DNA of 64,000 bases from assembly GCA_030568195.1 (NCBI GenBank), contig JAJLTO010000012.1, positions 124,001-188,000 on the forward strand, written 5' to 3'. The notes below the pieces were generated by a model. The model was not told the DNA's origin and did no database searches. It was given only the letters and a program-made list of their open reading frames with translations. This document shows, in pieces, positions 11,252 to 61,173 of the stretch; positions within the stretch are counted from its first letter, which is position 1; each line of letters starts with the position of its first letter. Source of the stretch: Dipodascopsis uninucleata var. uninucleata (lineage: Eukaryota > Ascomycota > Lipomycetes > Lipomycetales > Lipomycetaceae). The translations under genes were made by a program, and so were the position numbers.

Positions 11252-12472
11252 ATGAATGCCTCATCGCCGGTCGTGCCTCAGGCAATCAGGCCTCAATCAT
11301 CGCAGCCTCCACCGCAGGGCCAATTCATGGCGTCACCTCAAACGGTAGGAACTGCACAGCCGTCAAATGGTCAGTCTCCAAATGTTATGCATACTTCACA
11401 GTTGCAACAACAGCACTCTCAGCAGCAAATGTTCCCTCATCAGCTTCAGCAACAACAACAGATGACTCCACATGATCTAAATAATATTCAGCAGCAATAT
11501 CTGTTTCAAAGACAAGCCCAGCAACAGCCTTTGACGCTTCAGCAGCAGCAGCAACAACAACAGCAACAACAGCTTTATCATGCACAGCTTTTAAGGCAGA
11601 GACAGCAGCAGGTACTGAATGGTGTTAATGCGCAGCAGGGAACTGCCAGTGGTGCTACTTCTGCTGGTGCTAATACTTCGCAACAACCAGGTATATATTG
11701 TTTAACTGTTTCTATAACATTGATACTAGTATATATAATTCTAACGATTAATTGATCTAGTAGTGGTAACGCCTGGTGCCCAGGCTGTCCCACAAAATGT
11801 CGTACCGACTTCGTCGTTTCAATTTCAAAATCCGACAGCCGCATCTTTGGCGAACATGCGAATTTCAAATTCTAGTGTTCCACAGCATATTATGCAACAA
11901 CAGATGCAGCAAGCGTTGGCATCACAGCAGCAACAGCATTTACAACAGCAAATACAGCAGCATCTACAGCAACAGCTGCAGCAGCATCTACAGCAGCAGT
12001 ATCATTCCGGCCAACATGGAGCACTTCAATCGGGACAAGCACCTGTATCGCAACAACACCCAATAGCGCAAGTTCAAGCTCAGCAGCAACCGTCTCAACT
12101 TCAAGCTCAGCAGCAGAGCGGTCAGCAGCAGTCACAGCAACAACCTGCGCGATCCTCTCAATCACAAGCACAACCACAGCAACCACAGCAATCTCAACAG
12201 CAAACCCAGCAGGCCCAGCAGGTACAACAACAGTCCCAGAAATCTCAGCCACCACAGGTTCAATCACAGAAGTCGCAAGTGTCCCAATCTTCTCAACTCC
12301 AGCAGCAATATGGCCAGCAAAGTGTACAGCCTACTCCACAGCAGTCGTCACAACAACAACAGAATCATGCTGCTCAACAGGCTCAGCTATTGTTACAACA
12401 GCAACAACAACAGCAGCAGCAACAGCAGCAACAGCAACAACAGCAGCAACAACAACAACAGCAACAACAACA

Positions 12473-12505
<33 letters not shown>

Positions 12506-14093
12506 ATTGGCTATTAACGGGCAAGTCCCTATGGTTCCAGGTCAGTCCCTGTCTGCTATGCAATTAGCTAATGTTAGGAGCAAGCCTGTGGGGAGTAGTG
12601 GCATCATGCGTTTATTGTTCTATTGTGAACATCTGAGTGCTGGTACCGAACAACACAAAGATCTTGAGTTCTGGAAAAAGTTTGTAATCGAATATTTCGC
12701 CGATATAGGTGGCATTAAGTACACAGTTGTGAACTCTATAGATAAAACTCCAAAGCAATACGAGGTTCCTAATGCTGCATTACCGAGATACTACAACACA
12801 CTATTTCAAGATGGAATTCGAAGGGTGCAGATAATACCTGAGAATCCAAGGGAAATCATGATGGCCCAGGAAGTGCACGTTGTTGAGTGTATCAGAGCTA
12901 CGATGGTATATTGGTTCTCAAATGGCAGTCATGTTATATCGCATGGATCATTACGTGTATTTTTGAATGCGGCGTTAAAGATAGATAGTCTTGAATTCCA
13001 TTCGCATGATCATGTTGAATATATACCTCGTTCGCTGGCGGTTGCAGCTTTATCAACAGCTATATCGTCAGATAATACACGTACAAATATCACTCTTCCA
13101 CATTCTCAAGTGAATGGTTTTGGCATTACAGATTCTCTAGCTAGATTTCTTCAAGTCACTCAGGTAATGGCTCAAATGGGAGAATTGGTGAACTACTATC
13201 TCTCTCAGAGTAACCTGAATAGTCCATTGCAGACGTTCAACAAATTTGTTTCACAGATTAATGCTCAAAGAGAGGTATCGCAACAGCAATTACAAGCCCA
13301 CATGCAACAATTGCAAATGGCGCAGAAAGCTGATCCGAAGTTAGAACCCTCTAAGCAGAAGCAAGCCCTGGATTCGCAAGGGAGAGAGCCACAGGGTGTA
13401 CCGCCTAAGCTGGATCAGACAGGACGTCAGCTGAGTCAGCAGCCATTACAGCAACGGTCACAGCAGCAACTTCAGATGCAACTTCAGATGCAGCATAACA
13501 TTCAAAGTAGACATATAGTAGAACAGCAGAAGGATATGAAAGACGACGACAGCCGTAGACTTACTGCTACTCATGACAAGAACGATGACGACAATGCAAT
13601 ATTGAGCCGTGACGATAATTCTGGGAACGATGACATTGACTCTCATAAGAATGATTCCAGTCTGTCCACTATTTCCACGACTTCTCTTAGTTCTGGCTCG
13701 ACTTCATTAACGTCGACATCGGCGACATCAACGTCAATACTAGCAGCTAATGAAATACAATCTCCTAGAATGATTTCGTCACCTTCACCGTCGTCTGGAA
13801 TGCTGAGTCCACGGTCTGTAAAACGAAGGCGGGAATCAATAGTAGGAAGTAATGGAAATATTCATGTAAGCGGTCAGAATCTGACCGCTGGTATTGGAGC
13901 AAGCTTAGCGTTGTCTGGCTTAGATAATCATAATAGCGGAGCTTTGAATAGTCCGTCTGGTGATATTTTGGTTAAGGAGGAGCAGGAGGAAGGGCTCAAG
14001 ATTAGAACTTCAATCGATGACATTGACCGTTTATCTCAATTGCCCGATGATCAAGCAAATAAGCGCTTAAAATCTCTAGGTGCGGCATCTTAA
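11252..14093 (+). CDS. Q-rich LIM-domain-binding transcriptional co-regulator (Ldb1/PtaB/Adn-like)
   Basis: Two exons, 11252-11690 and 11761-14093, give about 923 residues. The acceptor has two in-frame choices two or three bases apart. The N-terminal 360 residues are dominated by glutamine, with an uninterrupted run of 37 Gln at 12396-12506 written in mixed CAA/CAG codons. Residues from about 425 hold the LIM-binding (Ldb1/Clim) dimerisation domain: RLLFYCEHLSAG, then DLEFWKKFVIEYFADIGG, RYYNTLFQDGIRRVQIIPEN and WFSNGSHVISHGSLRVFLNA. The C-terminal part is acidic/serine-rich with a KRRRE basic patch after SPRS, as in fungal PtaB, Mfg1 and S. pombe Adn proteins. These act with Flo8/LisH-type partners in adhesion, filamentation and surface gene control. 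Nuclear function is inferred from family. Confidence 0.9.
12396..12506 (+). repeat. CAG/CAA repeat coding for 37 glutamines
   Basis: An unbroken in-frame run of CAA and CAG triplets within the Ldb1-like gene. The 3' end has nine to ten consecutive CAGs; the rest is interrupted by CAA. The pure CAG end is the likeliest place for length change between strains. Several shorter glutamine runs lie on both sides (for example 11541-11572 and 11920-11998). Confidence 0.95.
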
Positions 14094-14900
14094 AGCCTTT
14101 TCCGTTTTCTTCGGAGTAAGATTCGATATAATGTCCTTCTGGTGTTTAAGTCATTGCATGATGTTAATTATTTATGCCTTTTAGATTTCTAATTTGTAAT
14201 CAGGAAGTTCTTTCGTTTTATAAGATATTCATGATTTTGTGCTCTATCTTGATGGCTGTATATTGGGCCGTTTATTCGTTGGCTCTGGTCTTTGCCCAAT
14301 TGGTTTCATTTTCTATTTATTATGGAATTTCCCTTAATCTCCTTTATGTACTGATTCTTATAAAATAGTTAGTGTTATTATTTTGCATTTGTATTCTACA
14401 TATTATGTTTTTTATTGCCATACAAAATTATGGTCTCTATTGGGTTACCTGTTATTTGCGTAATATATTGTGGACTAAGGCTAATTTTATAAATTTGTAT
14501 TGTAATTTCTGTATTCTAAATTTCATACTATATACAAAACGAAGTTGTTTATTATCCTCTTTCTTAAATTATTTAGTATTTACTTTTTAGCGATGGCTTC
14601 TGAAGTCCATTTACATCAGTATATATTCTAGAGCATAGATACATTTTATTTGCCTTCATATTTAAGATATTTTCATTATTGATATTTTCTTTTTAGATTA
14701 CTTTTATTCTAAGTAATATAAATATAATATGAATAGTCGACTAGATTTCGATGTCTTTGTACTATTACATGTTTTGTAAATAATTCTGTGTTATCTAGAG
14801 CTCTGTTACAGTCTAGGCGTTAGGCAATGTTGATGTAAATGATCGAGTGCAAAAGCCATAATGCTATTTGTAAAGACATATAGCAATCATCTATACCTTA
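14094..14900. other. AT-rich 3' flank of the Ldb1-like gene, up to the island
   Basis: Very AT-rich host-type DNA with TATATT and AATATAAATATAATATG stretches. Frames at 14174-14590 are low-complexity and not called. The composition changes sharply at about 14900, where GC-rich bacterial-type sequence begins. Confidence 0.5.
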
Positions 14901-15005
14901 TACCTCCAGCGGCTTTACTGAAGAGTGCATGAGCCTACCGGGGCACAGCGACCAGAGTGCAGACACACGAACGGCGCCTGTCGCGACCATCTGCAGCTTG
15001 CGCAT
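14900..15005 (-). pseudogene. 5' end of a bacterial secreted-protein gene, cut at the island edge
   Basis: An ATG at 15005 (minus) overlaps the stop of the upstream gene as TGATG, the usual form of translational coupling in bacterial operons. The frame reads MRKLQMVATGAVRVSALWSL, a positively charged start and hydrophobic stretch like a signal peptide, and closes after about 35 codons, close to the place where host-type AT-rich DNA begins. It looks like the first codons of a larger gene truncated by the island's left junction. Family unknown. Confidence 0.4.
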
Positions 15006-15599
15006 CAATAAACTATGTCAACAAGATCACTCAGATTGTACCCGCTCGGAAATTGCGGGGAGCCATTGATATAAAGATTAATGGCACCGCTTGATGTTCC
15101 AGCGCTTATGTTCGCAAGAAGCGGGCCACCGCCTCTGAAGCTCAGGCTTGGACACATCAGTCCGCTGCTGGAGTCAAAGCCCAGTCCAAGATTGACCCCG
15201 AAGAGGTTGAGTCTGCACTGGGTCGAATCCATGGCATTGCCCCACATTGCCTTTGCCGCCTGACAGACCTGACCGCCGATCTGACCCTCGACAGCCTGCA
15301 GGAATGCTGCGGGATCCAGACCATTGGTGATAAGATTTAACCTAGTGCCGTTAAAAAAATTACTGACGCATGACAGTCCATGGACGCTATCGGGTTGCAT
15401 TTCATAGGCATCATTGGCCCGCACACGTTCATTCAGTGCCGACGCGGCCGCCTGAGTCAGGGTGGAACAACCAGCACTTCCCCGTAGACGTTGTAGAATT
15501 GGCGCTTTCGGATGATGTCGTCTATGCGCGCCCTTGTATTGATACGAGGAGCCCTGCCACGACCATCGCAGGCGACAGATTACAAAAGAACCCGCGCAT
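15005..15599 (-). pseudogene. Decayed bacterial secreted protein, unknown family
   Basis: Start at ATG 15599, preceded by AGGAGG at 15607-15612 with seven bases between, a textbook bacterial ribosome binding site. The first 25 residues (MRGFFCNLSPAMVVAGLLVS...) form a signal peptide. The frame then meets one stop near 15525 and needs one frame change near 15480 before running open to 15005. The remaining 140 residues contain cysteines (SCVSNFF, QVCQAAKAMWG, STQCRL, GLMCPSL) and end DLVDIVY. The mature part would be a small disulphide-bonded periplasmic or secreted protein. Operon context (coupled to another signal-peptide gene) suggests an envelope or conjugation-type cluster, but I cannot name it. 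Confidence 0.6.
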
Positions 15600-15606
15600 C
15601 ACGCTG

Positions 15607-15612
15607 CCTCCT
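15607..15612 (-). promoter_or_regulatory. Shine-Dalgarno site of the decayed secreted-protein gene
   Basis: AGGAGG on the minus strand, seven bases from ATG 15599. Such a site has no role in nuclear translation and supports a bacterial origin for this segment. Confidence 0.7.
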
Positions 15613-15715
15613 GACGTCTTTCCGGCAGGTGATAGCCTCCAGCATGAAGAGACGATCCAGGACAACAATATGCAGGAAAACCTGTCGTCTACTTTCCGTT
15701 ATAATGCTCTGGCCA

Positions 15716-15945
15716 AAAGGGCTTTCGGGAGACAGAAGATCTCTCCGACCGCGCAGATGGATATCAGTGCATTAAGGCAGCCAACAAGATCCGGCCATTC
15801 GTAAGGCGAGATGGATGAAAGCGTAGCGTGCCACGCTGCCAGAGTCGCCGGGCTCTGATCCAGTCTGGCTACGATCTCATCGCCACCAATGCTGCGCCAG
15901 ACATCACCAAGCGCGCCCAGAGCGACGGGGAATTGGACAAGGTGC
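15716..15945 (-). pseudogene. Bacterial coding remnant upstream in the same operon
   Basis: Minus-strand frame open for about 75 codons reading GALGDVWRSIGGDEIVARLD, then SPATLAAWHATLSSI, YEWPDLVGCLNALISICAVG and a stop. No ATG in good context; stops occur upstream. Composition is clearly coding, GC-rich and bacterial. I do not recognise the family. It precedes the secreted-protein pseudogene on the same strand and was probably part of its operon. Confidence 0.4.
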
Positions 15946-16139
15946 TGGCAACGACGTGGCCTAGACAGATGACGTCACTGATGTCGGGCACAGCAAAGTC
16001 ATGGTTCACCATCGAATTCGCTGACAGGTCGCATGATTGCCGCGCACCTTCCTTCGTAATCAGCCGAGGAACGTCTCATACGAACACTTCAACATGTCCC
16101 GAAAGCCGGGTCTCCGCCGCCTGATTAAAAGGTAGGGCT

Positions 16140-16374
16140 GACCCGTTTTGCTCCTGGCGGCGGCAATGAGCAAATGCCTCGCGTTTGGTCCCCACAGATA
16201 GTGGAGGACGAAATTGACACCAGCGACAAAATGTTTCTTGAAGGTCTTCTTGTTCACATCCCAGTCTGCGGTAAGCTGAACCGTGGCATCAGCTCCAATT
16301 CTGCTACTTCGGCGAACACTGCTGCATTGCAGCCTGTGACCATGACTCGCGTGGCCCCCAGATCAGCGCGGTGA
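16140..16374 (-). pseudogene. Middle part of a medium-chain (quinone-type) reductase, minus-strand piece
   Basis: Reading leftwards from 16374, with frame changes, the translation is DLGATRVMVTGCN, then an EVAELE/ATVQLTADWD-like stretch, NKKTFKKHFVAGVNFVLHYL and WGPNARHLLIAAA. This is the Rossmann-fold half of a zinc-type/quinone oxidoreductase of the MDR superfamily. The C-terminal half of what looks like the same protein lies on the plus strand from 16362, so the gene has been split by an inversion. Decay is shown by at least two frame shifts in this half. Confidence 0.6.
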
Positions 16375-16610
16375 GCGGGCCAGAAATCTCCCTGCCGGGA
16401 GCAGTGCTATACTCCTCTGCAATTCAGTTGATGGGTAGTGGTCTCGGAAGTGTTCCGATGGAGCGGCTTCTGGTCTCCATCCGCGAGCTGCTGACCGCCA
16501 CAATCCAGGCAGGCCCGCAGATCGCGACACGGGTGTTCCCGCTTGCGGACGTACAGCAGGGTTGGGACGAGCCTACAGGCGCATTGCGGACTGTTTTCCG
16601 CATAGACTGA
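16362..16610 (+). pseudogene. C-terminal part of the same medium-chain reductase, plus-strand piece
   Basis: The frame reads SGPEISLPGAVLYSSAIQLM, then GSGLGSVPMERLLVSIRELL, and after IATRVFPLADVQQGW ends RTVFRID. This is the C-terminal catalytic-fold segment typical of MDR alcohol dehydrogenase/quinone reductase proteins. It is open to a proper stop at 16608-16610. It points the opposite way to the other half of the gene (16140-16374) and to every other gene in the island. No start codon or promoter belongs to it here. Confidence 0.7.
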
Positions 16611-16711
16611 TCAGACAGTTGGCCCAGATGGAGAACCAACCTCAACCTCATGGCCGCTTCTAAGCTCGCATCGTGAGGTCCGGCATGGCCGATTAAGGGC
16701 GATTACAGCAT

Positions 16712-16739
16712 GTCTGCTTCGCACTCGTTGAGCAGACAG
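16712..16739. other. Inverted repeat, possible hairpin
   Basis: TGTCTGCT and AGCAGACA separated by 12 bases form an eight-pair stem between the reductase C-terminal piece and the NIPSNAP remnant. A third copy of AGCAGACA lies at about 16792. There is no T-run, so it is not a plain bacterial terminator; it could be a decayed operator or the footprint of the inversion. Confidence 0.35.
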
Positions 16740-16799
16740 GTGGCTCAGGCTGCGGAAGCGATACGTCGCATACTGGCTCTAAACGATAAGGAGCAGACA

Positions 16800-17425
16800 T
16801 CACATAGCGAGGTTTGTTTGTTTGAAATCGTTAACGCAATATAGAGAATGTTTTCTGGCACACAAAGACAGGACTGCGCATGGACGATCGGGTCAGACCC
16901 GCCTTGCGGTGGCCATAGTCCGGCCACGTAAATGCTGTTGGCGCAGTAAATTGCGCTGTTAGAGATTGTTGAAAGCCTAGACAAAGCAGATGAGCAATGC
17001 AGCATCCAAGGCATACATATTGGTGACCGAATGCAAGCTCGTGGAGGCTCCAGAGTAGCTTGCCATGCTATCAGAGTCGGTTCCAGCCCTCTTGACTTCA
17101 GCCTGTATGTTCGAATTTCATAGAGCCCCCCGCGCATGCCCAACGCTGGGAGACTCAAGAAAAGAAAAAGCTTGGAAGTTTCCATTCCCATAGAGATACC
17201 CCTTCCTCTCGGTACCGAAGGGCGTTTTGGTATTCAGTGTTCTGCGTCGTACATCGTGTATCGAGCAGGACATCCTGAGAGGCAAAGGAGCGCAGAACCG
17301 GAAGCGTTCCGAGGTCGCCTATCTCACTGCGCCAGATGCCTCCCAGGCTTCCCATTATAGGGTCTGACGCATCAGAGAACTGTTCCTTTGGGCATTATGG
17401 CCAGATCTCGTATTCCTGTCAGCAA
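16800..17425 (-). pseudogene. Decayed double-NIPSNAP-domain protein
   Basis: Minus strand, from about 17425 down to 16800, in several frames. The first domain shows GIRDLAIMPKGTV, SDPIMGSLGGIWRSEIGDLG and LRSFASQDVLL. After a linker ending SLWE, the second domain reads GGLYEIRTYRLKSRGLEPTL, then SPICM and GLWPPQGGSDPIVHAQS. The order YEIR-xx-x-PG...SEIG...LW is that of bacterial NIPSNAP-family proteins, which often carry two such dimeric alpha-beta-barrel domains and sit beside oxidoreductase genes. At least three frame changes are needed, so no product is expected. Its neighbours on the same strand are SDR genes. Confidence 0.7.
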
Positions 17426-17448
17426 TCACGCTTCCAGGGTTCAAATAG

Positions 17449-17990
17449 TCACCATCCCTGTTCAGTGGGGAGAACAAACGGCTGTGCGACGTCCACCCCC
17501 GAGGGTGATTTCAACGCAAACAGGACCGCGTCAGCAATGTCATCTCCCTTCAGATAGGTCAACGAAGCCGCCAGATAATCCATCTGCTTGCGGTAATTAG
17601 CGTCAGTAATATGCTCATACAGTTCCGACTTCACGGCTCGTGGCTGAATGCAGGTTACGCGGATATTGTGCTTCAGTCCTACCTACATCCTGAGTCCATC
17701 GGAGAAAGCCGCGACTGCTGGCTTCGGGGTGCAATAGACAGCAAGACCCGTAAAGACTTTTCGGCCCGCAACTAGGAGACATGTTGAAGATATGACCCGA
17801 ATGGTGTGCGATCATCTGTGGCAGTACGGTAGCCGTTGCGTTGAGTACACCCGAGATGTTCACGTCAACCATACGCTGCCCTTCGTCCACTTCCAAACTA
17901 TCAACATTGGACAAGCATCCATCAGGGCCACAATGGATTGTTCGTGACAACGCGATTATATCCGATATTGCACAGCATCTCGACTACGAA
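17449..17990 (-). pseudogene. Decayed short-chain dehydrogenase/reductase (second SDR)
   Basis: Minus-strand pieces in two or more frames. One runs from 17950 with SLEVDEGQRMVDVNISGVLN and ATATVLPQMIAHHSGHIFNM, the SDR helix with the catalytic Asn and the beta strand before the catalytic Ser. Another, 17634-17449, reads KSELYEHITDANYRKQMDYL, later DDIADAVLFALKSP and the end FVLPTEQGW, the C-terminus of YdfG-type NADP-dependent SDRs. The Tyr-x3-Lys region between them is scrambled by frame changes, and the N-terminal TGxxxGIG cofactor region is not seen up to the 18067 insert, so the 5' part is lost. Different from the intact SDR to its right. Confidence 0.75.
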
Positions 17991-18051
17991 TCAGACGCCT
18001 CCTCTAGTTGCGCTTGCGCTTTCAAGCGAGATATGGGCGCTCCTCCCAGCC

Positions 18052-18066
18052 TTATCGCTCAACGGG
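18052..18066. repeat. Left copy of a 15-bp direct repeat around the AT-rich inset
   Basis: TTATCGCTCAACGGG here and at 18459-18473, both in the same direction, exactly flanking the 392-bp AT-rich block. Looks like a target-site duplication. Confidence 0.85.
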
Positions 18067-18458
18067 CTGTTTTAATCTTTTAACTCCAGCACACGGCTCA
18101 GTTTCAAAATAGGACAGAGACTGATCATCCTCTTCGATAAACTTAGATCTGACAGTTCATGTGACATAACGGAGCCTTGAGCATAAGCCTTTACTGCTAA
18201 TAATATTATGTATTAGTTGTATATTCAGCTTCTAACTACCTCACAGGAAGTTCTCTTCCTTTATATATCTATGGTTCCACACGCGTACCCTTTTCACTAC
18301 AGGAATTACATAGGAACATCCCTTACATCACCAACGTTAAATATCCCTAACCTTCAACTTAAATTAGTTTACTCCACATAATTTAATATTCACTCGAGAG
18401 TTACTATACAGTAAATTTGTCTTCTCAAATTTATATTTCTTTTTTTCCAACACAGCTA
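18067..18458. mobile_element. 392-bp AT-rich insert with 15-bp flanking duplication
   Basis: A block with the AT-rich composition of the host, set inside GC-rich bacterial DNA and bounded by identical 15-bp direct repeats. It has no open frame of note and no clear poly(A) tail; the minus-strand end reads GTTAAAAGATTAAAACAG. A 15-bp duplication fits target-primed retrotransposition (a truncated LINE or a SINE-like unit) better than LTR elements, which usually make 4-6 bp. Filler DNA inserted during break repair is another choice. I do not recognise the sequence as a known family. Confidence 0.55.
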
Positions 18459-18473
18459 TTATCGCTCAACGGG
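18459..18473. repeat. Right copy of the 15-bp direct repeat
   Basis: Second identical copy of TTATCGCTCAACGGG; bacterial-type GC-rich sequence resumes directly after it. Confidence 0.85.
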
Positions 18474-18648
18474 AGACGGGCTGCGGGCTCCTGGCTAAAT
18501 AGCGTTCGCATAGTTGGATAGTATGAGGCGGAAATGCTCAAACTGCTTTGCCCATCCACCTGCTATAAAACCCACCCATCCTGTATGATGCCTGGGGTAC
18601 AAAACTGGTGGCTAATACCAATGCAAAGCTGTAGCCTTTCAGTCCGCT

Positions 18649-19464
18649 TTACAGGCCTGCAAACATGCCCCCGTCCACCCTCAGATTAACACCCGTGATA
18701 TAGGCAGCCTGCGGGCTGCAAAGAAACAGCGCGGCACTCGCTATATCTTCCGGCTTCCCAACACGACCAACCGGAACCTGCGCAAAAATCGGCAGAACTG
18801 CACGCTCGATCTCAGGCCACGGAGCGTCTTTCTCCGCCAGCCCCCGTTGCGCCGCCACTTCCCGGAAACGATCATCCAGGGTGACGCTGTGTATCGTTCC
18901 CGGAGAAATGGTATTGACTGTGACGCCATCCGTAGCCACGGCCTTCGCCATTGAAACCGTCATGGCGTTCATGGCGGCCTTACATGCCGAATAATCGGGA
19001 GAAGTCGGCGGAGGCATCATCGCAGCCAGACTGGAAATGTTGATGATACGTCCCCATTTTGCTTTCTGCATTTTGGACAAAAGACAGGTGGTGATCCGAA
19101 CGGCACCCAGAACATTGCGATCATAAGTCTCCATCCATGTTCCGGGTTGTGTGTTTGCCCATGTCTGTGTGTGGCCGCCTGATCCTCCCGCATTATTGAC
19201 GAGAATATTGATTTCACCCCACATCTGTTCGGCTTCCCTGACCAGCCGTCCGACATCGTCCTCGCGCGTGAGGTCACCGGTTACAATCCGGGCCTGCCCG
19301 CCCTCCTGCCTGATCTCTTCAGCGACCCGCATGGCTTCACGTTCGTTCCGACCATGGACCACGACCAGCGCTTTCTCTCTTGCAAAAGCCTTCGCGATAG
19401 CTTCGCCAATCCCTTTGCTGCTGCCCGTTATGAGCGCTATTTTTCCATTGAGTTGCAGATCCAT
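18649..19464 (-). CDS. Intact bacterial short-chain dehydrogenase/reductase (SDR)
   Basis: 271 residues from ATG 19464; the longer frame to 19527 lacks an ATG, and AAGGAG at 19470-19475 sits five bases before this ATG. All classical SDR features are present: TGSSKGIG (13-20) for the cofactor, D64 after strand 4, NNAGG (90-94), Asn117, Ser144/145, Tyr158 and Lys162 (YSACK), the PG motif after strand 6 and a C-terminal ITGVNLRVDGGMFAGL. HGRN at 37-40 after strand 2 favours NADP(H). The length and end resemble FabG-like 3-oxoacyl reductases and related oxidoreductases; the substrate cannot be read. It has no intron. Every other gene of the island is broken, so the open frame is either recent or kept by selection. 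Confidence 0.92.
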   Translation of the reverse strand: MDLQLNGKIALITGSSKGIGEAIAKAFAREKALVVVHGRNEREAMRVAEEIRQEGGQARIVTGDLTREDDVGRLVREAEQMWGEINILVNNAGGSGGHTQTWANTQPGTWMETYDRNVLGAVRITTCLLSKMQKAKWGRIINISSLAAMMPPPTSPDYSACKAAMNAMTVSMAKAVATDGVTVNTISPGTIHSVTLDDRFREVAAQRGLAEKDAPWPEIERAVLPIFAQVPVGRVGKPEDIASAALFLCSPQAAYITGVNLRVDGGMFAGL

Positions 19465-19469
19465 AAGTG

Positions 19470-19475
19470 CTCCTT
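19470..19475 (-). promoter_or_regulatory. Shine-Dalgarno site of the SDR gene
   Basis: AAGGAG on the minus strand with a five-base spacer to ATG 19464. It decides the start codon and marks the gene as bacterial. Confidence 0.8.
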
Positions 19476-19529
19476 CAATGTATTGAGCCAACCGTTTCCA
19501 TAGTAGCGACGAAGTTGAGCGATACAATT

Positions 19530-19547
19530 ATGTACTTATAAGTACAT
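19530..19547. promoter_or_regulatory. 18-bp perfect palindrome, probable operator
   Basis: ATGTACTTATAAGTACAT reads the same on both strands. It lies 66 bases upstream of the SDR start. A TACT...AGTA core is the shape bound by HxlR/YodB and some MarR-type winged-helix regulators, which often control redox genes such as SDR and quinone reductases. No regulator gene is left in the window. Confidence 0.65.
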
Positions 19548-19549
19548 GG

Positions 19550-20055
19550 CGGGATCAGCAGAGTAGCGGCGGTATTCGGCCATGTGGTTTTCCAGAAAGA
19601 AATCCGGATCACCATTGATCCGCCTTCCGGCAGCGGCTATCCCTTGCTGCCGCCCACTTCGATATCCTGCTACCGGAAGCCGGACTCATCCCCTGATAAA
19701 GACATGTTGATTACTGGTCCGCCAACAGGGCCATGGCTCTCGACCTCCAGAGCCGTGCGACGGGTCTCAAGTGCAGCTCATATCATCATAGGCCGTGCTG
19801 CCAAGCGTAGTGTATAGGGTAAGGGGATACGTTGCTATTATTATTTTTGAAATACAAAACCAAAGCGACTAGCTTATTTTCGGTATCATTCGGTATTTTA
19901 AAACACAAATAAGTCAGTTCACAAGCTCATATTCAAATATAAAAATACTCATACAACAAAAAGCAAAAGTTGTCTTAAATAAGTCGATGAAGTAAAATAT
20001 TTCATACAATAGACTATCTATGAAACCTGAACAAATCCATAAACACAAAATAACA
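19550..20055. other. Right end of the island and junction with host DNA
   Basis: 19550-19830 is GC-rich and partly coding-like on the minus strand (GPVGGPVINMSLSGDESGF near 19690-19745; DFFLENHMAEYRRYSADPAM near 19550-19610) but in broken frames and without a recognised family. At about 19830-19850 the sequence turns into AT-rich host DNA (TTATTATTTTTGAAATACAAAAC), which is the 3' flank of the Bck1-like gene. No repeat matching the left junction was found by eye. Confidence 0.5.
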
Positions 20056-23000
20056 CTAAGTGAAGAACGAATGCTCCTTTCGCTTATCATCGAATCTAAT
20101 TAGTCTCGCCAAGTTTGTATCATCAAAATTGAATTTGGTGTCAGGAACACAGAACTTAGATTGCAATAAGACTTCTGCAGTTGGCCTCATCTCAGGATTG
20201 ATGGTGAAACAGTCATCAAGAAAAACCTTTCCATCTTCCGGGACATAATCAACAGTATCTTCTGGAATTGGAGGAGCCAGTTTCGCATTGCCAAGCTTGT
20301 ACATGGCACCAATTGCTTCGTCGTTGGACCATGGACGACGGCCAGCAAACATCTCTAATACAACGCAACCAAGTGACCATATGTCTACTTTAGCACTGTA
20401 TCCCTGCTTCTCATTATGCACAACGTTATGGATAACCTCAGGAGCCATCCAGAATATAGTGCCTTGCATAGACATCTCCGCGTCATTCGAGTATATATTC
20501 TGGCTCCTCTTTGATATTCCGAAATCAGAAATTTTACATACACCATCCAAATCAAGTAATAGATTGTCCGACTTCAAGTCTCTGTGCAAAATGCTTCTCG
20601 AATGAAGATAAGCAAGACCGTCGACCACTTGCCTAGTGATAGATCTAATGACAGATAGCTCGAATCTACCATGCTTTCTCAGACATGTACCGATTGAGCC
20701 TCCTGGAACATATTCAAGAAATAAGCTGCATACATCGGGTAGTGCTTCATACCCTAGATACTGCACAATGTTGAGATGATCGAGATCCTTCATCGTCTGA
20801 ATTTCAGAGTTAAGTGCATCCACGACTTCTCGTTGTTTGGTACTATCGTTATCACTGGAAGTTTGGGGAACACCAACTTGTTTGACTGCCATCATTTCAC
20901 CTGTAGTTACATTAAGCGCCAAATATACACGACCAAAAGTACCTTTTCCAATAAGTTCACCCTTAACCCAATTGAATTGCTGTGGCTGTCCCGGCCTTCT
21001 TGTTACCGAAAGCTGCCCACGTTTGATTTGTCCAGGTATGACCTCGACGACTCTTTGACCCCACATTTTGGTACTCTTCCTTCGAAGCAATGCCTTGTTT
21101 CCATCGTTTCCAATAATTTGCTTTCCATTCTGTGCCATTTTCAGGTTCTTCCTAGCATCACTAGCCTCTCGTGCAACGATGCGCAATGATTTCATTCGAG
21201 AGTTTCGCACGATTCCTCCACTTCTGTTCACTGTTGTCTTTGCTGGCGATTTTAAATCTTCATTATTCACTGAACTTTGTACAAATGGCGCGCCCGGCTG
21301 AACAACAACATCGATAAGAGTGGGTCGACGAGCTTTTTGTGAAACGTCAATCCTTTCTTCAACGGGTCCGCTTCCAGAATGTGAACTAGACTTGAATGAG
21401 AATCCCCTATCTAAATTCGTATGTTCATTTTTAGTTCCTTCGCTCTCTTTGTCGCTAACATCCTCATAATCAGGTGTAGGATCGAAGGGACTAATGCCAC
21501 TACTATATTCACTATTATCGGTAGAAGGTGAACTAGATGCGAAGATTGGAGTGTCGTATATAATTGGTTTATCGAGGTCTGTATTCGGGAAGAATTTCTC
21601 CAAATTATCGTATACGATTTCCGCTGGAGGGCGAACGGCCCATACATCGCCAGTTTCATAAATTTCCTTGAATTCATCCAACTTAGTTTGGTTATGTAGC
21701 TGACTGTAGTTATTACGAAACGGAATATTCGGAAGATCACCAACCGCAGATGCAGGTGAAGTGCTCACAACGCTAGTAGGTACGAGCGTTTCATGTACGC
21801 GATCTGTTGGAGAGAAAGCCGAGTTGACTGAAAGAGGCTGCGTATCGATGACCTCAGTATTACCAATCTGTACATGAAGTACTGGCCTTTGTGACTTCGT
21901 AGATGTAGTTTCTTGATTAGTAGAGGAACTTCCAGCAGACGGTGAAAGGATAGACGTAGGCACTGCAGGTGTCTGGCTCAGAGAAGAGATGTTTCCGTCT
22001 TCTGAAGATGGCACCAATGTTGGAGGTTTCATAGCCCAAAGCCCGTCATCTTCGTCATCATTTTCACTAGTGTCATCAAATGATGGGAATTTAGGAGCAT
22101 CTGCAAAGGAAATCTCATTTTCCTCAAAAGCAGCTGAAATGGAAGGGTTGGAGCGATCTGCAGAATTTTCAGTATCCTTCTCAGAGTCACCTTCAACCAA
22201 CTTTGAATTCGCTTCTTCAGCTGCAGATGCTAATGATTTTCTCGGTACTAAGTGATGTTTTTCCTTATCTTTCAATCCAAGGTCAGAATTTCGTTTGGAA
22301 TCATTAGATAAACCGATATGACTGTATCGGGAAGTAACAGGTGTCGACAACGGTGAAACAATCGAATTCTGATTAGGAGAAGAAGCTAAATCGTCCTCCT
22401 TTGGATTACTATTTGGTAGAAGCCATTTCCTAGGAGTAGGAGGAGGAAAACTTGATTTGATAGCGAAGTCATTTGATGGTGGAACTTCAAGAGAATTAGA
22501 TTGAGTAGGGACAAAACTCGATACTCGCCTATTTGCTTCTAATATTGGCGGTCCAAGTTCACAAGAACGTCCTTTAAGTGATGACGAACGTATTTGTGAC
22601 TGGCTAGGAGGTGGTGGAGGGCTTCTGTGAGCAGTAAAGGCACGAGGAGGATATGGTGATTGCCGACCTTTGTTGAAATCGATGAACGGGGCTGGCTGTT
22701 GAACGAGCTTGAAATTCTGCTCATTATCGCAATGCTTTTTAATTTCGATGTTAGCCTTCTCTGGTAGCGTAACTTCCTCAAGTTGAGTATATTGAGAATT
22801 TTGTGACGACACAGGAAGTTGTTGTTGTTGTTGCTGCTGCTGCTGCTTGGTACTATTCAGAAGTTTATGTCCACCTATAAATTCTGACGAATTTGAGCTT
22901 AAAAAATTGTAATCTGTATTTACGCGTAACGATACTTTCGCTTCTACTGGTGATCTGCGTACTAATTGCTGCACATTGGACGATATTGGCTTGTACGTAG

Positions 23001-24127
23001 CGTCAGGAGGAAAAGAAGTCGATTGCCTAAGTCGGACAAATAACTTGATAACAATTTTGGCATCTCCTCGCTTGAATTGATTTAAGAGATCTTCATCTGC
23101 CAGCGGGTCTCCATTCTCAGTCTCTCCAAAATCAGTTATATGTAGCTGGACGTGCTTATTAACATCCATTCCTAGCTTTTCAGCAATCGACTGACGAATG
23201 ACTGATGGACTACTGATTCCTGTAATGTTGATGAGAATAAAATGCTCATGATCAGTAGTACAAAGTAGCATTATCTTCTTTGAAGGTTTATCCGGCGAAA
23301 TTGGTTGATTAGTACTCACAGGCGATATAGAGGAACTCGCATACGCAGTACTACTTGGAAGATACGACGTGACCGATGGCGTAGACGATTGTTGGCGAGT
23401 TGACTTGACAGAACTTATTGATTCCTGACCAGCTGAGTCATATGGCGCCAAGGAAAAACGGTTATGCTGTATCAAGTGTGTGTCAGACAGATTATTTCCT
23501 GTGTAAGGCGAATATTTCGAGACAACTCTAGGAGCTGGCGTATGGTGGCTCTATAATAAAACAATTGCCAATAACAGTAAGCATGGATATACACTCTTGA
23601 ATGCACATCGTTAAAATGTAATAATCGTGATTCGAAGAATAACTTACATGTCCATGAGAAGCGTCCTCGGTGTGCTGCTTATCCTTGGATTTTCTTCCCA
23701 GATGAAATATACCTCCCATAAAGTTACCCGATGTCTTCTTTCCCACGTCGCTTTCACTAGAGTCTCGTCTGTTCGGGCCCGATGAAACCGAAGGGACTAG
23801 CATAGCAGGCTTGTGCACCGATTGCCTGTCACTTTGTTCTGAGTGACTATGTCCACTACTAAAATTATTAAGAGTAATACTCGAGTTGCTCGATGTACTT
23901 CCAGTACTAGCACTACTGTAGTGCCTCTTAGACTGTGGACTTGGCGTTAAAGGATCTTGTCCTCCCACTGTAGACATAGGACGAGTGTTTAAGGAAGGTC
24001 GGTAGTCACGTCTTTGCTGACTAGACTGTTGATCTGGAGGTGACGGAAGCATAGACGCTCTCCTCGAAGACCTACCGTCAGAGACAGGTCTTGGGATACC
24101 CGGTGGACCCAGGCTGGATCTTCCCAT
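20056..24127 (-). CDS. bck1/mkh1: MAPKKK of the cell-integrity pathway (Bck1/Mkh1)
   Basis: Two exons, 24127-23648 and 23550-20056, joined across a 97-base GTAAGT intron in phase 0, giving 1324 residues. Start is ATG 24127 (MGRSSLGPPGIP); the frame extends to a TTG upstream. Residues about 250-335 form a Ras-association-like ubiquitin fold seen in fungal Bck1. Between it and the kinase lies a long Ser/Pro-rich regulatory region with an 8-residue Q run. The kinase domain (about 1015-1290) has GKGTFGRVY, AVKQVGVP, HRDLKSDN, SDFGIS and GTIFWMAPE. The phrases NVTTGEMMAVKQV, HLNIVQYLGYE and GYSAKVDIWSLGCVVLEMFA are those of Bck1/Mkh1/BckA. It would phosphorylate the MAPKK Mkk1/Pek1 downstream of protein kinase C in cell wall signalling. 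Confidence 0.95.
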
Positions 24128-29596: not shown

Positions 29597-30322
29597 TCAA
29601 GATACATAGTCTAAAAATCTTTTACAAATATCAAGCTGTGATGCCGACGGAGTATTTAAATAATCTGTAGGAAGTGAATTTATGAAATGGTCATATTCTG
29701 ACGGTAATGATATCAGAAATGCTTGTATTGTAAACTTCTGAAGACATGGGTCAGAATCATCCAGTTCATTTGCAATCGTAAGGAATTTGTTGGTATGATC
29801 TAGCGGATTTGCGTCTTTACTCATTGCAATAAGAAGCATTCGTAATAATCTCGTCTGCTTTACTAAAATTGAGTCCACAATCTCTGGTCTGTACTTCTGC
29901 TCTAGAAATCTCCATAAACTTCTACCAGAATCACCACAGTGACTCTCAGCCACATCGGCAAGTACATCACTCGACAATGCAATGATAATATAATTGTAAG
30001 CCTCTCTTTCTCGTTTTTTGAGATCCTCCGGGGAATCTGTGTTGTCATCCCCATTTACTATGTTCCATCTGTCCAGCTGGATCAAGCAAAGTCGCATCAG
30101 CGCTCTCCAGCTAGAATAGTCATCACTGCCCTCTAGCTTCCGAAATCCATACAAGCATACGTGCTCTTCGCCATCGTTATCTACGCTATCTAGTATAGCT
30201 TTGCTCTGCATTTCCAGTAGCACATTCAATTGCGCAAGCATGCTTATCTTTGAACTGATTTCCGAAAGTACGAGACTTTCGTCTGTCGGCCGTAATGGTT
30301 CCTGTGAATTCTCTTCGTACAT
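29597..30322 (-). mobile_element. Orphan copia-type Gag-like frame (Ty1/copia LTR family fossil or domesticated gene)
   Basis: A 241-residue frame from ATG 30322 that looks whole. It has the layout of the Gag polypeptide of copia-type LTR elements (UBN2/DUF4219-like): a KLEGSDDYSSWRALM-type start, a central helix-rich part with SLWRFLEQKY and later ILVKQTRLLRML, then a segment around DHTNKFLTIANELDDSD and LISLPSEYDHFINSL. No zinc knuckle, protease, integrase or reverse transcriptase is seen next to it, and no LTRs were found by eye. It may be an isolated Gag remnant or a Gag gene taken over by the host. Flanks are AT-rich. Age cannot be judged from one copy. Confidence 0.65.
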
Positions 30323-61078: not shown

Positions 61079-61173
61079 CGACATCAGCAGGACTCGAACC
61101 TGCGCCTCGAAACGAGAAAAGATATCAAATATTAAATTCGAGTCTTTCGCCTTAACCACTCGGCCATAATGCC
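61079..61173 (-). tRNA. tRNA-Ser (anticodon CGA) with 13-base intron
   Basis: 95 bases with intron, 82 when mature. The 5' end at 61173 is GGCATTA, pairing with TGATGTC through two G-U wobbles; discriminator G at 61079. D arm GGCCGAGTGGTTAAGGC, anticodon stem AAAGA/TCTTT with loop CTCGAAA, long variable arm CTCG-TTT-CGAG and T arm GCAGG-TTCGAGT-CCTGC. The long variable arm confirms serine. The intron (TTTAATATTTGAT) sits one base after the anticodon, the usual eukaryotic site. It reads UCG codons. Confidence 0.9.

Follow-up and report, generated by a model that had tools for sequence, protein, structure and literature searches.

A decaying block of bacterial genes, most likely from a plasmid, in a chromosome of the fungus Dipodascopsis uninucleata

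Results

A bacterial island between two native genes

We analysed a window of 64,000 nucleotides from Dipodascopsis uninucleata (C12:124001-188000 in an assembly of 16.2 Mb and 25 contigs). The HIR1 protein encoded in the window matches a D. uninucleata protein with 100% identity across 98% of its length, and Lipomyces tetrasporus, the next named species, follows at 72%. Well inside this contig lies a bacterial-derived island of about 5 kb (14857..19808 of the window). It contains remnants of a plasmid conjugation (tra) region, an MDR gene, a NIPSNAP-family gene, two genes for short-chain dehydrogenases/reductases (SDR1 and SDR2) and an alpha/beta-hydrolase gene, together with an inserted host repeat (Table 1). 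SDR2 alone is unbroken and the other island genes are all broken. These data support the idea that the island is a decaying multi-gene bacterial block within a fungal chromosome.

The guanine plus cytosine (GC) content in consecutive 1-kb steps from 15 to 20 kb was 0.545, 0.550, 0.520, 0.477 and 0.490, compared with 0.325 at 14-15 kb and 0.415 at 20-21 kb. Across the left edge, GC content rose from 0.23 to 0.37 and 0.60 in 100-bp steps starting at 14700, 14800 and 14900. Across the right edge it fell from 0.57 to 0.36 and 0.25 in steps starting at 19700, 19800 and 19900. The left edge is placed at 14857 by a weak protein match and at 14907 by a DNA match, whereas the right edge is placed by the hydrolase match, which extends to 19808, and by the drop in GC content at about 19.8 kb. 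There are native genes on both sides of the island, and inside it there is a host repeat with its target-site duplication, as expected of an integrated segment. An earlier note on this DNA had proposed a decaying bacterial gene island of about 5 kb between an Ldb1-like gene and a MAPKKK gene. Both the island and its setting were borne out by the GC steps, the broken genes, the repeat and the native flanks, which encode a LIM_bind protein and a protein kinase. An MDR reductase, which the note had also listed, is present as well; the hydrolase fragment, the two flipped blocks and the inserted repeat do not figure in the note.

Table 1. Features of the island and its two native neighbours (positions in the window).
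Feature	Position	Strand	Remarks
LIM_bind protein gene	11763-14093		Left native neighbour; long open frame, intact
TraW-like fragment (FMA36_RS17640 relative, K. xylinus plasmid pA)	14857..14970	-	2 stops in matched frame
FMA36_RS17645 relative (conjugation-region protein, no named function)	15008..15560	-	Frameshift and stop
FMA36_RS17650 relative	15628..15926	-	1 frameshift; first 20 residues absent
Adjoining plasmid DNA (RS17655 region)	15918..16159	-	Flipped
MDR gene (zinc-type alcohol dehydrogenase/quinone reductase family), first matched half	16150..16361	-	Flipped relative to second half
MDR reductase gene, second half	16358..16610	+	From homologue alignment
NIPSNAP-family gene	16828..17388	-	Matched in three frames; at least 2 frameshifts
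SDR1 pseudogene	17449..18052	-	Frameshift and stop; 17452-17914 firm, 17915-18052 tentative
15-bp target-site duplication, left copy (TTATCGCTCAACGGG)	18052..18066	+	Perfect repeat of island sequence
Host repeat	18067..18458	-	392 bp; one fixed end at 18067
15-bp target-site duplication, right copy	18459..18473	+	Identical to left copy
SDR2, classical short-chain dehydrogenase/reductase	18649..19464	-	Intact 271-codon frame
AAGGAG hexamer	19470..19475	-	Upstream of SDR2 start codon
Alpha/beta-hydrolase fragment	19497..19808	-	About 40-nt gap relative to Acetobacter oryzoeni plasmid gene; core 19579-19639
Protein kinase gene	20056-23475		Right native neighbour; long open frame, intact

The left block is part of a plasmid conjugation region

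Judged from its gene content and order, the left block of the island is part of a plasmid conjugation region of the IncI/Dot-Icm-like type. The block had been read earlier as a secreted-protein operon; it does exist as a block of genes, but it belongs to conjugation. Its three neighbouring tra genes (TraW-like, RS17645 and RS17650) are colinear with Komagataeibacter xylinus plasmid pA over about 1 kb, and in plasmid pA this trio sits between the DotA/TraY gene and the DotI-DotH-DotG genes. In the RS17645 relative, 158 residues can be read in a single frame at 79% identity, with the frameshift and stop lying beyond them. The TraW-like fragment was matched by tblastn with an E value of 1.5e-4. 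At the protein level it is among the least secure of our identifications, along with the outer portions of the hydrolase and SDR1, and the plasmid pA protein itself (FMA36_RS17640) falls under the cut-off of the NCBIfam conj_TraW model (E 5e-7). The best tra frame matched 54 of the 72,556 plasmid records searched, 29 of which are typed as conjugative. By genus, the 54 records are from Acetobacter (18), Roseomonas (12), Komagataeibacter (7), Gluconobacter (6), Methylosinus (3) and others, and identity peaks at 79% in Komagataeibacter and Novacetimonas. The decayed conjugation gene is also the source of a 131-residue database entry (P0241), which the window encodes at 15032-15424 on the minus strand.

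Two neighbouring blocks are flipped. The flip of the RS17655 region holds against plasmid pA and against all six genomes that have both blocks, and the opposite orientation of the two MDR halves is evident against each of the four homologues aligned. We considered a single inversion spanning both flipped blocks and rejected it, since this would give the reverse block order. The arrangement would instead require two flips or an event in which fragments were joined.

Remnants of NIPSNAP, SDR1 and hydrolase genes

The hydrolase, SDR2, SDR1 and NIPSNAP genes lie on the same strand, head to tail and with short gaps, like a bacterial gene cluster. The NIPSNAP gene had been expected to encode a double-NIPSNAP protein; the family assignment stands, but Pfam finds one domain in the bacterial homologue. 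Between the MDR and NIPSNAP genes, about 50-65 bp at 16685-16750 match several Acetobacteraceae genomes at 78-86% identity. The core of the hydrolase fragment also matches an Acetobacteraceae genome, G136, with an E value of 3e-11. Both SDRs of the earlier note were found, and of these SDR1 is in pieces as it had been described, whereas SDR2 is a complete gene.

A host repeat has inserted into the island

The fungal genome has 72 matches to the family of this host repeat, counting the island copy, and by manual count 65 of them are no more than about 7 kb from a contig end. Across the 20 stretches examined, 26 matches share one starting end (TGTTTTAATC, slight variants included), while the other end is variable and the surroundings mostly differ from copy to copy. 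Copies of the repeat (loci L122-L141) bear a short open frame that reaches the fixed end. In the island, the repeat is flanked by a 15-bp duplication of island sequence. When up to two mismatches were allowed, these two copies were the only matches to the 15-bp sequence in the whole window, where 0.10 would be expected, and none of 100 shuffles had two matches. The target-site duplication was demonstrated for the island copy only. Because it combines a fixed end, a variable end and this duplication, the repeat resembles a truncated insertion of a non-LTR (non-long-terminal-repeat) retroposon, and the family appears to behave like a truncated retroposon with a preference for subtelomeres. Since no difference separates the left and right copies of the duplication, the insertion is probably young relative to the decay of the island.

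Whether the repeat went into SDR1 itself is less clear. The stretch of SDR1 beside the repeat (bp 152-296) gave a z value of 4.9 with a Komagataeibacter gene but only 1.0 with an Acetobacter gene, and for this reason we regard an insertion inside SDR1 as tentative. The first 50 or so codons of SDR1, sought beyond the repeat, gave no signal (z values of -0.3 and 0.7).

SDR2 is intact and appears to be under constraint

Classical SDRs carry the cofactor and catalytic motifs TGxxxGIG, NNAG and YxxxK. The unbroken frame of SDR2 has TGSSKGIG, NNAG and YSACK, and it matches Pfam adh_short with an E value of 1.4e-52. Its scores are just below the NCBIfam cut-offs of the two best models (210.5 versus 215 and 208.4 versus 222). 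Over residues 1-269 or 4-267 of its 271 residues, SDR2 aligns with PDB entries 3aus, 1gco and 3ftp. Since these nearest solved relatives by sequence are glucose 1-dehydrogenases and FabG-type reductases, SDR2 is predicted to be a working NAD(P)-dependent reductase, probably of a sugar or ketone.

All organisms named among the 120 SDR2 homologues listed are bacterial. SDR2 is 86% identical to protein P0001 and 82% identical to an Acetobacter protein, the nearest one from a named organism, and in a tree of 45 rows, each bacterial or without a named source, the three form one group with 100/100 support, although the bootstrap had not settled. The end branches are 0.080 for the island SDR2, 0.079 for P0001 and 0.17 for the Acetobacter protein. 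The fungal genome has no near paralogue of SDR2, the next best match being 35% identical. Two Acetobacteraceae genomes contain SDR2 relics with the second half only, residues 136-271 (G001:C80:7144-7556 and G136:C2:171894-172305).

To compare the two SDRs, we left out each of eight SDR2 sequences in turn and scored it at residues invariant in the other seven. The island SDR2 departed at 1 of 133 such residues, while the seven bacterial homologues departed at 3-9 of 135-141 and the sister P0001 at 5 of 137. By contrast, for SDR1, translated both before and after its frameshift, the figure was 18 of 115. In the same test, four close relatives of SDR1 departed at 0, 0, 1 and 0 of 97-98 residues and two distant ones at 6 of 103 and 11 of 108. 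Fisher's test of SDR2 against SDR1 gave 9e-6, a value to be used as a guide only, as the sets differ in depth (pairwise identity of 67-83% for SDR2 and 74-96% for SDR1). The earlier view that the island has resided in the fungus without selection therefore suits most of its genes, but not SDR2, which is intact with fewer changes at conserved sites than its bacterial homologues. Purifying selection on SDR2 is the explanation that we prefer for this pattern.

Relatives of the island in Acetobacteraceae

BLASTN against the plasmid records, which amount to 7.3 billion bases and set the scope of the E values, gave 85 records with island matches. Among the 20 of these that were listed, the tra, SDR1 and NIPSNAP pieces matched Komagataeibacter, Novacetimonas or Acetobacter at 69-80% identity, and the E values for these pieces (4e-45 to 9e-124) exclude chance. 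Relatives of SDR1 and NIPSNAP occur on Acetobacteraceae plasmids. Agrobacterium or Sinorhizobium accounts for 48 of the 85 records; among the matches listed, two Agrobacterium records and one from Thioclava match SDR2 only, at 64-65%. In a GTDB scan with SDR2 the best full-length match was 68% identical and came from Inquilinus (best 80 of 192), and in 49 genomes of one genus the best among the matches listed was 40%.

We also searched sampled Acetobacteraceae genomes. With the two best candidates scored in each, 34 of 299 genomes had a match to island DNA, and 12 of the 34 were searched deeper with 15 to 25 candidates scored each. One genome, G136, has relatives of five pieces: tra and the SDR2 relic on contig C2, SDR1 on C3, NIPSNAP on C4 and the hydrolase on C1. 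In another, G281, tra and SDR1 share one contig of 157.5 kb. The distances between tra and SDR1 in G281 and between tra and the SDR2 relic in G136 are tens of kb. When three plasmid stretches were compared with the fungal genome in search of a second island, they matched this island only, apart from two class III alcohol dehydrogenase matches. Together, these comparisons show an Acetobacteraceae affinity of the tra, SDR1, NIPSNAP and SDR2 sequences and a plasmid affinity of the tra block. The source of the island is most likely a plasmid.

Elsewhere in the window, at 29597-30322 on the minus strand, there is a 241-codon open frame whose product has a gag domain of the copia type (Pfam Retrotran_gag_2; E value 4.7e-14); it is probably a retrotransposon remnant. 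A 95-bp tRNA at 61079-61173 on the minus strand was found by Rfam but not by ARAGORN and probably bears an intron.

Discussion

That fungi and yeasts carry genes of bacterial origin is well established (PMC11708051; PMC13376923). Such genes are usually studied singly and after adoption, so that their mode of entry is hidden. A fossil of the kind described here could reveal how the DNA was carried in as well as what selection let through, and the fungus and the bacteria concerned can be cultured. This variant of a known phenomenon is a segment of several genes, plasmid transfer genes among them, that is decaying around a single survivor; we found no published report of the Dipodascopsis island among the open-licence papers listed.

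We favour a history, at a probability of roughly 0.6, in which a single plasmid segment from an acetic acid bacterium reached the nucleus, became integrated and then decayed, with selection preserving SDR2. On an Acetobacteraceae plasmid, this segment of about 5 kb would have spanned the edge of the conjugation region together with a few clustered oxidoreductase genes. It would have entered the nucleus of the Dipodascopsis lineage in one piece and been joined by its ends into the gap that separates two native genes. Frameshifts, stops, a deletion and a pair of local flips would then have disabled most of the genes, mainly in the fungus, with a late jump of the host repeat into the island. SDR2 would have been retained under purifying selection, and presumably is expressed and functions in the fungus.

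How the segment entered is a separate matter. Conjugation is the natural reading because the cargo includes transfer-region genes and because conjugation from bacteria to yeast is established in the laboratory, where it carries plasmid DNA into yeast cells (PMC4958254). The scar would be similar, however, had free DNA been taken up. We therefore offer only tentatively the fuller proposal that the island is the scar of natural conjugation from an acetic acid bacterium to a fungus, in which a passenger, SDR2, was recruited while the rest decays. On that proposal the island may be a rare trace of the natural passage of DNA from bacteria to fungi.

Several observations weigh against this history or parts of it. 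As to the route, the tra genes are evidence of a plasmid source and not of an act of conjugation, and neither an origin of transfer nor a relaxase gene turned up in the island, though no search was aimed at either. As to the source, the earlier note had suggested looking for a donor with the island's gene order; this order occurs in no plasmid or family genome examined, where the sampling and the scoring limits allow for misses, and the relatives in G136 are spread over four contigs. The best plasmid-borne match to SDR2 is rhizobial (66%), and when 397 sampled family genomes were searched with six candidates scored per genome, only three had a full-length SDR2 relative at E <= 1e-70, the best at 70%. 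The MDR gene is only 51-55% identical to Acetobacteraceae sequences, and its source and that of the hydrolase are less certain, both having been compared in depth with Acetobacteraceae alone. As to selection, SDR2 keeps a bacterial bias at third codon positions (GC of 0.59 versus 0.34-0.35 in two native genes) and is preceded by AAGGAG, which we take to be like a ribosome-binding site. The fungus's own SDR2 record is absent among the 120 homologues listed. The chance that SDR2 escaped lesions by luck at its neighbours' rate is 0.045, based on a manual count of at least eight small lesions in about 2.1 kb.

The codon bias and the hexamer of SDR2 are what would be expected if the genes of the segment had for the most part been broken before they left the bacterium, as can be the case in plasmid regions, and the segment had arrived recently, so that SDR2 is intact through shortness of time and idle in the fungus. 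The truncated SDR2 relics in two family genomes fit this alternative, as does the youth of the repeat insertion relative to the decay. However, the SDR1, tra and NIPSNAP genes are unbroken in the bacteria compared, none of which has the island's flips, and the repeat insertion implies at least some time in the fungus. We consider this alternative unlikely, roughly a one-in-five prospect.

Somewhat less probable again is that the island accreted, either because Acetobacteraceae DNA was inserted at one spot on several separate occasions or because fragments were joined before insertion. In known bacteria, relatives of the pieces are on different replicons or contigs, and the two neighbouring flipped blocks are suggestive of joined fragments. 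It would also accord with accretion that SDR2 has decayed far less than its neighbours. However, SDR2 has a decayed piece on each side, both of them on its own strand and only a short gap away, and a late insertion would have had to hit exactly this place; for this reason we prefer selection on SDR2 over its later, separate arrival. Apart from the class III alcohol dehydrogenase matches, the three plasmid stretches also have no other copy in the genome, which argues against repeated insertion.

Contamination or misassembly, which the bacterial base composition might suggest, is very improbable and we rejected it because a host repeat is embedded in the island between copies of duplicated island sequence; furthermore, the pieces with matches share 69-80% identity with known bacterial DNA and are broken, unlike those of a living contaminant, and the region from 14.0 to 21.0 kb, well within its contig, contains no N.

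As a comparison, the closest known system to the left block of a single plasmid segment such as we favour is the Dot/Icm-like transfer region of K. xylinus plasmid pA (NZ_CP041349.1), which has the same order of the TraW-like gene, RS17645 and RS17650. The island differs from plasmid pA in that nucleotide identity is 69-72%, its frames are broken and the next block is flipped; the 6 kb of plasmid pA examined to each side contain no gene for an SDR, a NIPSNAP protein or an MDR reductase. Yeasts of the Wickerhamiella/Starmerella group acquired a bacterial siderophore operon that is described as functional. Like the island, this operon represents several bacterial genes gained jointly by a yeast, whereas all genes of the island but one are broken, and a conjugative plasmid seems to be their source. 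The systems of trans-kingdom conjugation described in PMC4958254 use laboratory plasmids and donors, while the island is a scar and not an observed transfer. Rolland et al. (2009; PMC2715888) state that the bacterial genes that they observe within conserved yeast synteny are always single-gene insertions. The island resembles these cases in that bacterial DNA lies between native genes, and differs from them in bringing together several genes and plasmid transfer genes, most of them broken.

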